A stretch of DNA of 64,000 nucleotides. Origin: Acidobacteriota bacterium (GTDB lineage: Bacteria > Acidobacteriota > Terriglobia > Terriglobales > Acidobacteriaceae). Of this stretch, positions 15,681 through 19,654 are shown piece by piece. The notes below the pieces were generated by a model, which worked only from the letters and a program-made list of their open reading frames with translations, made no database searches and was not told the origin of the DNA. The stretch lies in the NCBI GenBank assembly GCA_003225495.1, contig QIAJ01000169.1, positions 24,826 to 88,825 on the forward strand, read 5' to 3'. Both the position numbers and the translations under genes were made by a program. Position 1 is the stretch's first letter. Each line of letters opens with the position of its first letter.

Positions 15681-16545
15681 GCGCACACCCCTCCGCCTTC
15701 TGCGTAGACGCATCGAGCAGTTACACTGAGCCGGAAATCTTGGGGGGATTTGCCACCGGCCTTTTTACAGGCGGTGCAACGCGATTTCGTCAAATATTAT
15801 TCGCCCTGCGTCGCAGTCGCCGGTTCCATTCTTGGAATCCGGTCTCTTTACTCCCGGTCGGGAGTCCCCCTCAGGTCTGCGACCTTAATCTCCAAAGAGC
15901 GCCCCATCTGGAGAGCACATCCTGACTTGACCACAAGTTACTAGTCAAGGCTTTTTGATGCCTCCTTTTGCTTCGGTCCTGGCATGTTCGCTTTTTGGAA
16001 CAGGGCAGACGGCCCCGCTAGACTTCCCAATGACGGCTAACTGCACTATAGATTCATTAGGATTTAGAGGATATCTCGACTAACAGCGTTCGAACCCAAC
16101 GAAGATGAGCATAGGTGTAACGCTGCCCGGCGGCCAGAATGTCCGAGGATCCTACATCCGCACGGCATTTAGAGAGAGTGCAACAAATCAGGAACGCATA
16201 GTCCGAATAGGCAGTTCTGCTCCCGTTTGACTGTTTCACTTCCAGCAACAATTCACCACGCGGGTTCTGGTAGTCTCGTGATCCTGTACCCTTTTGGGAA
16301 ATTAAGAAGGTAGAACTTAGTACTTTTACAAAATCAAAACAACCTTCTCTGAAGCACACGAAGCAGCAGTCCCAAAACAGGAATTAAACCCAGACTAGGG
16401 AGGGTCCGCGACCCACAGTTCGGTGCTAGAATACCGCCTCGCGTGTTCCGCAATACGAACAAGAAGGCTTCAGACCTTCCCTTCGAAGAATAGAAGGTAG
16501 CGGCGCGCTTTGTTACATTTTCAAAAAAGTGCAGAGGGGTGCGCA

Positions 16546-16938
16546 GTGGAACTTAAGGGAGGATACAAACTTCGTGTTTTGAGGGAAGCCCTCGGCTGCA
16601 CGATGCGTGACGTTGAAAACGCGAGCCTTCAGATTGCGCGGAGGCTGGGAAGCGAGGAATTTGGTATTCCTCCCAGTCGATTGTCGGACATCGAAACCAA
16701 GGGAGTTGTTCCCAGCGTTTTCCGGTTTTATTCCTTGGCGGCGATTTATCGTCGTGACTATCGGGAATTACTTTCGTGGTACGGCGTGGACCTGAACGAC
16801 ATCCATCTCGATGTCGGTGCCGCACATCCCCCAAACTCACATCTTACTAAGGCTTCCGAAAGCATCGCCCAAATTTCCATTCCCGTTCGCCTGGACCCAG
16901 GATTCAGCCTCAAGACGACCACGAACTTGGTCGAATGA
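16546..16938 (+). CDS. XRE-like HTH N-terminal part of a regulator (probably split from 16935..17357)
   Basis: GTG start after an AGAGGGG RBS-like stretch; ELKGGYKLRVLREALGCTMRDVENAS...IPPSRLSDIETKGVVPSVFRFYSLAAIYRRD. Confidence 0.7.
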   Translation: MELKGGYKLRVLREALGCTMRDVENASLQIARRLGSEEFGIPPSRLSDIETKGVVPSVFRFYSLAAIYRRDYRELLSWYGVDLNDIHLDVGAAHPPNSHLTKASESIAQISIPVRLDPGFSLKTTTNLVE

Positions 16939-17357
16939 TCGAACAATGGGGCGTTGTGCCGCTCTCTTATTTGTCTATGTTTGCTGCGGACGACCGTTAC
17001 TCATACGGCTACATCGGGTCGGAGGATTTCACCATGTACCCGATTTTGCCGCCCGGCAGTTTTGTGCAGGTGGACGAACGCAAGAACAAGGCGGCAGAGG
17101 GCGCATGGCGCACGGAGTTCGAGCGCCCCATCTACTTCGTCGAGACCCGTGAGGGCTTTGTCTGTTCCTGGTGCCAAGTGCAGCGGGACAACATCGTGCT
17201 GCAACCGCATCCCTTGTCGTCTGTGCCTGTTCGCATTCTGCGGCATCCACAAGAGGCTGAAATTATCGGACAGGTGGTCGGGGTGGCGATGTGTCTTGGT
17301 GACTGGCGTGTGCTTGGGTCTCCACTAGAGCCGACAATGCGTGCAGAACTGCCATAA
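16935..17357 (+). CDS. S24/LexA-like C-terminal part of the same regulator, in another frame
   Basis: MIEQWGVVPLSYLSMFAADDRYSYGYIGSEDFTMYPILPPGSFVQVDERKN; ATGA overlap with the previous ORF. Confidence 0.65.
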   Translation: MIEQWGVVPLSYLSMFAADDRYSYGYIGSEDFTMYPILPPGSFVQVDERKNKAAEGAWRTEFERPIYFVETREGFVCSWCQVQRDNIVLQPHPLSSVPVRILRHPQEAEIIGQVVGVAMCLGDWRVLGSPLEPTMRAELP

Positions 17358-17706
17358 GGTGGCTCTGCGAAGCCGCCGCCGCGCCGGCTGGCAGCGCTTG
17401 CAGTGTCAGCTTTCCCAAAGACGAGAGGAACGCAACGGCTGTGATCTGAGCACTTGACGCGGAGCTACTCAGATCCTCGACCAACACGCGCAAAGGAGTT
17501 CGTAATATCCGTGTAAGTACCGCACCATGAGATGTGCGCATCGCTCGCCGGGCCGCTTCCTCGCCATGCACCCTTCCCATTCCCCAGTGAGAATACTTCC
17601 CGCGGCCATCGTGCAACTCAGCGAAGTAGTTCAATTTTCCTAGAAGTCCGGGAATGGCGCCTAAGCTGGTGCCTTCGAAGTCTTCAAGAGCGGATCTGAG
17701 CGGCAC
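17263..17706 (-). CDS. Conserved-looking hypothetical protein
   Basis: 147 aa with plausible composition (AIPGLLGKLNYFAELHDGRGKYSHWGMGRVHGEEAARRAMRTSHGAVLTRILRTPLRVLVEDL); no opposing gene over most of its length. Confidence 0.55.
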   Translation of the reverse strand: MPLRSALEDFEGTSLGAIPGLLGKLNYFAELHDGRGKYSHWGMGRVHGEEAARRAMRTSHGAVLTRILRTPLRVLVEDLSSSASSAQITAVAFLSSLGKLTLQALPAGAAAASQSHLMAVLHALSALVETQAHASHQDTSPPRPPVR

Positions 17707-17860
17707 AAAAGAATTCTTCCCTAGAAAAGCTTCGAAAGCGGATCTCGATCCGTAAATTTACTGTTTCCGAAAACCTGTTAAGTGGGCCGCTCTCGTACAA
17801 CCGTACGCTGCTAAGCGCAAAGTATCACGGAACAATTCCCTTTTCCAAAGGAGAAACACC

Positions 17861-17989
17861 GTGAAAAAAATGTTATTCGTGCTCGCAGCCCTTTTGTTGC
17901 TAACCACCGCCAGCGTGCCCTGCCTCGCTGACGGGAACCCCTGGCCTCGCGGTACTCAATGTCCTCCCGGGACGGTTTGCCCGGCCTAA
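17861..17989 (+). CDS. Small secreted peptide (42 aa), absent from the supplied ORF track
   Basis: RBS AAAGGAG 5' of GTG; MKKMLFVLAALLLLTTASVPCLADGNPWPRGTQCPPGTVCPA*: Lys-rich n-region, hydrophobic core, short polar tail with CPPGTVC. Confidence 0.65.
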   Translation: MKKMLFVLAALLLLTTASVPCLADGNPWPRGTQCPPGTVCPA

Positions 17990-18008
17990 CCTCGGGGGCG
18001 CGATTTGA

Positions 18009-18037
18009 TTGCAAATTTGCGGCGGGCGCAATATAGT
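18009..18037 (+). promoter_or_regulatory. Candidate sigma-70-like promoter for the membrane-protein gene
   Basis: TTGCAA (18009-18014), 17-bp spacer, TATAGT (18032-18037); ATG at 18051 with no obvious SD. Confidence 0.4.
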
Positions 18038-18050
18038 GCCCTCCAGCAAT

Positions 18051-18785
18051 ATGACGCAGTGGTATAACTTCGTTCTGCATTACCTTTGGATCGCGCCCCA
18101 CGCTCTGCTTGCGGTTTTGTCGGTGGTTATGTTCGTCCGGCGGCTCCACAAGAACTTTCCTGTTTTCTTCTTGTACACATTGTACGAAACCATAGAGTTT
18201 CTTCTTCTCTTTGCTATCGCAGGAATTGCTCCTACTCATAAGGTCTTATATCGAGACGTTTTCACAGCGACTCTGGCAGGAAGCATCGCGCTGATATTCA
18301 ACCATGTGTTTCATGACTATTCGCGTCTCGAGACCCTTGGCATGGCTTCGATGCGTTGGCTAACCGGTTTCTTGGCAGCTGTCGCGATCTTATCGGCGTT
18401 CTATTCCTCTGGGGCTGTTCCCGATAGTTTGTTGGCGGGACTCGCATTGCTCAGCAGGAGCGTGGCAATCATTCAGGCCGGGTTACTGCTCTTTCTTTTC
18501 CTGTTTTCCCGCATGTTCGGCCTGTCATGGCGCAGTTACACATTTGGAATCGCATTCGGTTTCGGAATCTTCGCCAGCACCGAGCTTGCGGTTTCTGCAC
18601 TGCATCTGACCGATCTCACTGAACATGGCAAAGACTTGCTGGATCTTCTGCCGACTGGAAGCTACCACGTTTCTGTTGTGGTTTGGCTGGGCTATTTGCT
18701 GGCAGCAGAAAAACCGGTCGTCGCCGCCACCGACACGGTACCCGAAATGGATCAATGGAGCGGAGAACTGGAGCGTACCCGATGA
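18051..18785 (+). CDS. Integral membrane protein, about seven hydrophobic segments by eye
   Basis: MTQWYNFVLHYLWIAPHALLAVLSVVMFVRRLHKNFPVFFLYTLYETIEFLLLF...; repeated long hydrophobic stretches. Confidence 0.75.
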   Translation: MTQWYNFVLHYLWIAPHALLAVLSVVMFVRRLHKNFPVFFLYTLYETIEFLLLFAIAGIAPTHKVLYRDVFTATLAGSIALIFNHVFHDYSRLETLGMASMRWLTGFLAAVAILSAFYSSGAVPDSLLAGLALLSRSVAIIQAGLLLFLFLFSRMFGLSWRSYTFGIAFGFGIFASTELAVSALHLTDLTEHGKDLLDLLPTGSYHVSVVVWLGYLLAAEKPVVAATDTVPEMDQWSGELERTR

Positions 18786-19309
18786 GCGCGACCCTGGTGT
18801 TTGTTCTACTCTCAATCACACTACTGGTGTTGTTTGCCTACCTGGCGACCCGGCGCGCGAAGGACTTGCCTGACCTCGATCGAACCATTACAGCCATTCG
18901 GGCGCTCGACGTGGAAGCGTTCCGAAATTTGGTGGATCCCGAGGAGGAGGAGTTCCTGCGGGTCAGCCTGCCTGCCCAGGCATTCAGAAGAATAAAACGT
19001 GAACGCTCTCGGACAGCTCTTGTCTACACGAAAGAACTATCGAGGATCTCTCTGCAATTCGCACGTTTCGGCGGTGCAGCCCAACGGAGTCCGGATCCCG
19101 CCATCGCAGCCTGGGGAAAACAGATCGCAAATAGCGCGATTTACCTTCGTTTGCGTGCCCTGGATGCGACTGCGCAGCTGATGTTGTCGGCGACCTTCCC
19201 AGGTTTACAGCCGCGGCCCCTGCGCTCGCTGCTTGAACAATACGATCGTGCCACCGGCCTCCTCCTCAATCACAACGCACTAAGGCGCGCGCAGATTCAG
19301 GCACCCTAG
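18782..19309 (+). CDS. Hypothetical protein with one N-terminal TM anchor
   Basis: ATG overlaps the upstream TGA (ATGA); MSATLVFVLLSITLLVLFAYLATRRAKDLPDLDRTITAIRALDVEAFRNLVDPEEEEFLRVSLPAQAF... Confidence 0.65.
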   Translation: MSATLVFVLLSITLLVLFAYLATRRAKDLPDLDRTITAIRALDVEAFRNLVDPEEEEFLRVSLPAQAFRRIKRERSRTALVYTKELSRISLQFARFGGAAQRSPDPAIAAWGKQIANSAIYLRLRALDATAQLMLSATFPGLQPRPLRSLLEQYDRATGLLLNHNALRRAQIQAP

Positions 19310-19411: not shown

Positions 19412-19654
19412 ATGGCACGAGGTTGGGAAAGTAAGTCAATCGAACAGCAACAGGATGCGATGGCGGAGCGGCACAAGCCGGCCCGTCCTGCACTGTCGCC
19501 CGAAGAACGCGACCGCGATCGCAAACGCCAGGGGCTGCTTCTCTCCCGCAGCCGCCTGTCCCGCCAGTTGGAAACGGCGGCCAACCCCCGGCATCGTCAG
19601 ATGCTGACTGACGCAATTGCGGAACTCGATCGCCAACTCTCATCTCTTGAGTAG
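19412..19654 (+). CDS. Small charged hypothetical protein
   Basis: 80 aa, strongly charged helical composition; no known family recognised. Confidence 0.4.
   Translation: MARGWESKSIEQQQDAMAERHKPARPALSPEERDRDRKRQGLLLSRSRLSRQLETAANPRHRQMLTDAIAELDRQLSSLE

Follow-up and report, generated by a model that had tools for sequence, protein, structure and literature searches.

A candidate peptide-receptor cassette linked to an XRE-type regulator in Acidobacteriaceae

A five-gene cassette in a 64,000-nucleotide stretch of Acidobacteriota DNA (the window), with a sigma-54 activator gene on one side and purS on the other, appears to encode a conserved peptide-receptor-like system in which an exported peptide would be the partner, and the likely ligand, of a seven-helix membrane protein (7TM) under the control of an XRE-type regulator. 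We put this reading at slightly better than even (about 0.52). It builds on the genes themselves, their synteny, selection on the peptide, its pairing and co-variation with the 7TM, and operator-like sites, all of which we observed; signaling is the likeliest of several readings of these data, and peptide sensing is what we infer. The genes and sites are as follows.

16324..16340, no strand assigned: operator-like site 1, TTTTACAAAATCAAAAC, about -222 from the regulator start, with 4 mismatches to TGTTACGAAWTCCGAAC, positioned as in relatives
16444..16460, no strand assigned: operator-like site 2, TGTTCCGCAATACGAAC, about -102, with 3 mismatches, placed where relatives have their -110 site
16546..17357, + strand: XRE-type HTH regulator, ~270 aa; a 1-nt deletion near 16927 breaks the window copy, and relatives have one ORF
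17263..17706, - strand (GTG start): m147, a predicted all-helical protein of 147 aa, convergent with the regulator and overlapping its 3' end; in nearly all cassettes
17755..17774, no strand assigned: operator-like site 3, AATTTACTGTTTCCGAAAAC, lineage-type, in a conserved intergenic block that separates m147 from the divergently transcribed peptide gene
17861..17989, + strand: precursor (42 aa) of a putatively secreted peptide, with DGNPWPRGTQCPPGTVCPA as its predicted mature part; conserved position, purifying selection
18051..18785, + strand: seven-helix membrane protein (7TM), predicted N-out/C-in; the window copy is without 7 residues (RFGVIQE) found in relatives
18782..19309, + strand: anchored protein with one TM segment and a soluble domain; its start overlaps the 7TM stop

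The first-pass annotation had placed a gene set between the sigma-54 activator and purS that included a 42-aa signal-peptide gene, a 147-aa ORF on the opposite strand, and an anchored protein whose ATG overlaps the preceding stop. Each of these was recovered at the coordinates given there, and relatives retain all five genes in the same order and with conserved protein sequences. The window genome (G000) is a 4.5-Mb draft whose closest named relatives are Candidatus Sulfotelmatobacter and Acidobacteriaceae MAGs. Because a scan of genome contigs with the 7TM protein as the lone query returned no matches, the loci of relatives were collected with the regulator alignment as query. Among 80 named loci from Terriglobales (Ca. 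Sulfotelmatobacter and its relatives), the usual order is XRE regulator, convergent m147, signal-peptide gene, 7TM, and single-TM anchored protein. By tblastn and HMM scans, the same order and orientation were found in most of 20 relatives and most of the 80 named loci, several of whose contigs stop inside the cassette; the two sets partly overlap and so are not independent.

In several relatives, purS and glmS were undetected beside the cassette despite several kilobases of flank (e.g., L034, L045, L046, L049, and L050). As the cassette is intact where these flanks differ, it is a unit of its own. An 80-aa protein (MARGWESKS..., window positions 19412-19654) with no family match is conserved between cassette and purS in several relatives, and is not a constant companion of the cassette. 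In a distant family of the phylum (L144 and L150), the regulator and m147 were found as a pair, and the peptide, 7TM, and anchored genes were not detected, which makes the cassette look like two modules joined. Apart from the HTH, no cassette gene matched Pfam, NCBIfam, PHROGs, or PADLOC; the first-pass expectation that the membrane protein lies outside known unrelated families was thus borne out, and no PADLOC model for anti-phage defense matched the cassette.

Of the earlier description, two parts, both concerning the regulator, needed revision, one as wrong and the other as unsupported. The regulator had been called split, and the window does carry an HTH ORF (16546-16938, GTG start) and a following ORF (16935-17357). 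In 19/19 aligned relatives, the regulator is a single in-frame ORF (about 266-296 aa in the relatives examined), and one base near 16927 is missing in the window alone, compared with three relatives, producing a frameshift. A split regulator as a biological feature is ruled out by the intact single ORF in all relatives examined. The 7TM gene of the window also lacks 21 nt in frame at about 18292 (versus L059 7839-7860), which removes RFGVIQE, including Glu90, a residue conserved in 96% of 68 7TM sequences. With two genes carrying deletions, the window copy may be decaying or misassembled, and our conclusions rest on the relatives.

The description of the regulator as S24-like found no support. 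PF00717 (Peptidase S24) had no match among 19 regulator members at an E value of 0.1 in Pfam, and hhalign comparison of the regulator profile with LexA C-terminal domains gave a probability of 2.3-2.4% (E value, 0.02). The N-terminal HTH is present, with HTH_31 in 16/19 members and HTH_3 in 10/19 (Pfam; best E value 3e-4, scores under the Pfam cut-offs), and the same scan of the regulators found no C-terminal TPR family. Sequence searches of the PDB with regulator, 7TM, and m147 profiles yielded nothing useful.

The peptide gene of the window starts with GTG and has AAAGGAG upstream. Peptide genes across cassettes encode 37-60 aa with a signal peptide, and their location is fixed, with a median intergenic distance of 107 nt. 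Under strict criteria, the gap between m147 and the 7TM gene holds a Shine-Dalgarno-preceded signal-peptide ORF in 43/69 loci, against 0.05/69 in dinucleotide shuffles. Laxer criteria gave a set of 64 sequences, the window included, of which 53 start with GTG, 52 have ADG at the predicted cleavage site, and 61 have two Cys residues, mostly spaced by 4-5; the remaining three are without a Cys pair. The mature peptide has a median of 16.5 residues and a predicted range of 12-29. Codon analysis of 57 close pairs gave a dN/dS of 0.19 overall (0.185 for the signal part and 0.15 for the mature part), against 1.3 and 2.0 for the same DNA in other frames. The peptide is a real gene under purifying selection, whose absence would have counted against the first-pass reading.

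The AlphaFold2 model of a close relative's 7TM has seven long helices (mean pLDDT, 90.5; pTM, 0.85), matching the earlier count of about seven hydrophobic segments. Lys and Arg are more frequent in the odd loops (3.4, 1.5, and 2.0) than in the even loops (0.4, 0.6, and 1.2), which points to the predicted N-out/C-in topology. Foldseek comparison of the 7TM with the PDB gave no significant match (best E value, 0.2). Its top list was rich in GPCRs and included proteorhodopsin, with nonsignificant TM scores of about 0.5 to proteorhodopsin and PTH1R, and any seven-helix bundle might give such matches. AgrB (Pfam) had no match among 20 cassette 7TM and 15 paralog proteins. The 7TM family was detected in 58/61 genomes and 57/60 genera of the family, and 15 of the 16 genomes with a 7TM match in a phylum sample belong to this same family; a plasmid collection held no relative of the 7TM paralog.

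Among complete cassettes, defined as those whose contig carries the regulator as well as m147 and the anchored gene, 64 of the 67 with a 7TM also have the peptide (four peptides missed by the automatic criteria were added by hand), three have a 7TM without a detected peptide, three have neither, and none has a peptide without a 7TM. This co-occurrence, which the first-pass annotation had anticipated, gave a Fisher p of 0.0004, uncorrected for ancestry. The pairing also extends beyond the cassette. Most genomes of the genus carry one or two extra 7TM paralogs, typically open frames of ~300 aa, and at 23/30 of these loci, drawn from roughly that number of genera, the paralog is adjoined on the same strand, just up- or downstream, by a two-Cys signal-peptide ORF; the control, with one strand scanned around LexA/S24 genes, gave 0/45 loci. 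At L155, L156, and L162, three tandem two-Cys signal-peptide genes lie beside the 7TM paralog, and their mature parts are identical or near-identical (e.g., DGGPIPCPPGRKCK). No XRE, m147, or anchored genes were found beside the paralogous pairs in the flanks scanned. In one cassette (L073, 7339-9233), the peptide gene sits between two 7TM genes. At L054 and L058, a 7TM paralog lies near flagellar motAB-like genes, and L058 has a two-Cys peptide downstream.

Across 58 loci, mature peptide distance was correlated with 7TM distance given the regulator, m147, and anchored protein distances (partial r = 0.447, p = 0.002) in a Mantel-type test that removes shared ancestry only in part. The corresponding partial values for the mature peptide were 0.02 with m147, -0.14 with the regulator, and 0.11 with the anchored protein, and the signal-peptide part did not co-vary with the 7TM (0.004). 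That the peptide and 7TM are co-evolving partners is well supported. Ligand-receptor, toxin-immunity protein, and substrate-enzyme pairs would all show this kind of co-variation.

Of the other readings, the one that fares best, though we consider it unlikely, is that the peptide is antibacterial, the 7TM protects the producer, and the regulator controls production. Small exported two-Cys peptides, tandem copies, and specific co-variation of the mature peptide with the 7TM would all suit a bacteriocin and its immunity protein. However, carriage of the 7TM family by 57/60 genera is near-universal where bacteriocins are patchy, the cassette has no dedicated ABC exporter, and there were no Pfam or PADLOC matches. 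If this reading were true, the pair would be a new member of an already known kind of system. Less probable again is that the 7TM processes or exports the peptide in an AgrB-like role, with the receptor lying elsewhere or being the anchored protein. An enzyme and its substrate would fit the tight pairing and co-variation equally well, but with its ordinary Sec-type signal peptide the precursor can do without a dedicated inner-membrane exporter; Pfam gave no AgrB or protease match, and the mature part co-varies where the leader does not. We rate slightly lower still the idea that the peptide is a microprotein that serves the 7TM as a small subunit or regulator in the periplasm and is never released as a signal; this too fits the pairing and co-variation, and a Gram-negative periplasm would retain the peptide, but the repetition of one mature peptide in tandem genes points to dosage more than to a subunit in 1:1 ratio. 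Chance proximity of unrelated small genes, with a fortuitous peptide ORF, is refuted by conservation, selection, and pairing and has next to no probability.

The regulatory part of the peptide-receptor-like reading draws on a 20-bp near-palindrome, TTGTTACGAATTCCGAACAA. One copy lies in the intergenic stretch from which m147 and the peptide gene diverge, and two more lie at roughly -110 and -220 relative to the regulator. When a model trained on intergenic sites only was applied, at least one site was found upstream of the regulator in 43/56 loci and at least two in 31; the intergenic site was present in 49. Elsewhere, there were 9 operator-like sites in 569 kb. A site with 4 or fewer mismatches occurred in 1/300 random 400-bp stretches of the window, and a reversed-pattern control gave 0 matches in 14 genomes. 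Identity of the operator with a LexA box was ruled out, as 144 kb around LexA/S24 genes held no site within 3 mismatches. Outside the cassette, the sites neighbor assorted genes (a Crp-like regulator, response regulators, and PqqD/radical-SAM pairs) and form no clear regulon. The operator sequence occurs near the same Crp-like regulator gene at five loci (L276, L280, L314, L323, and L333), and with 1 mismatch upstream of a radical-SAM gene at L270 and L279 (G245:C56 and G244:C74); at L270, a PqqD-like gene precedes the radical-SAM gene, possibly as a peptide-modifying pair.

For the two remaining proteins, the AF2 model of m147 is confident and all-helical (pLDDT, 90.4), with only nonsignificant globin matches in a fold search against the PDB, and the anchored protein had no Pfam match.

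Taken together, the peptide-receptor-like reading would run as follows. The precursor would be exported by Sec and its signal peptide cut off after a short AxA-like site, releasing a 12-29-residue peptide that is usually closed by a presumed Cys-Cys disulfide. This peptide would pair specifically with the 7TM, most likely as its ligand; the N-terminus and even-numbered loops of the 7TM would face the periplasm. The XRE regulator may bind the near-palindromic operators of two promoters, its own and the divergent one of m147 and the peptide, a placement that would let it control its own expression, that of m147, and the operon of peptide, 7TM, and anchored protein. Relaying the signal between membrane and regulator probably falls to m147 and the anchored protein. 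Points against this reading are the cassettes that have a 7TM and no detected peptide, the peptides that have no Cys pair, the nonsignificant PDB matches of the 7TM, and the paralogous pairs, beside which the flanks scanned showed no regulator gene. More tentatively, we propose a family-wide system in which cognate, receptor-like 7TM proteins sense short Sec-exported two-Cys peptides. One copy would be coupled to an XRE regulator that controls itself, and the whole would amount to a peptide-pheromone/7TM-receptor pairing in bacteria.

Acidobacteria rank with the most common bacteria of soil, and a limited search of the open-access literature found no description of peptide signaling in them or of this system. 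The peptide/7TM pairs appear to form an undescribed family, with one of its copies embedded in the XRE-linked cassette; the newness of the family is judged from the absent family matches and that limited search. If the signaling reading is true, a large system has been missed, its peptide genes being smaller than annotation usually covers and lying next to members of a 7TM family present in 57/60 genera sampled. The cassette offers a testable ligand (~16 residues, cheap to synthesize), a candidate receptor, and a candidate operator.

Several known systems invite comparison. As in LexA/S24 proteins, an HTH is followed by a C-terminal domain, and the collinear DFTMYPIL..GSFVQVD of the regulator resembles GDSM..P.l..GD.v.Vd by eye; however, there is no PF00717 match, the hhalign probability is about 2%, and in this nonsignificant alignment the Ser of GDSM falls by eye on an invariant Thr (cassette family) or a Leu (distant members) at the nucleophile position. 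Bacteriocin-immunity pairs likewise provide a specific membrane partner for a small exported peptide, but the cassette pair is near-universal in the family and a dedicated exporter is absent. In agr-type systems (AgrB/AgrD/AgrC), a short peptide precursor is also encoded next to a membrane protein, whereas the cassette has no Pfam match to AgrB or a histidine kinase, and its peptide has a classical Sec signal peptide and would be a two-Cys product rather than a thiolactone. The seven helices, N-out/C-in topology, short secreted peptide partner, and weak fold resemblance recall eukaryotic alpha-factor/Ste2 and GPCRs, but the cassette is bacterial, with no significant sequence or fold match, and the likeness is one of analogy only. 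In Gram-positive RRNPP systems (Rgg/SHP and PlcR/PapR), an XRE-type HTH regulator is likewise encoded next to a small exported peptide, and the cassette has apparent operators at its own promoters; in contrast, its regulator is without TPR in Pfam scans, its host is Gram-negative, and it is the 7TM, not the regulator, that co-varies with the peptide.
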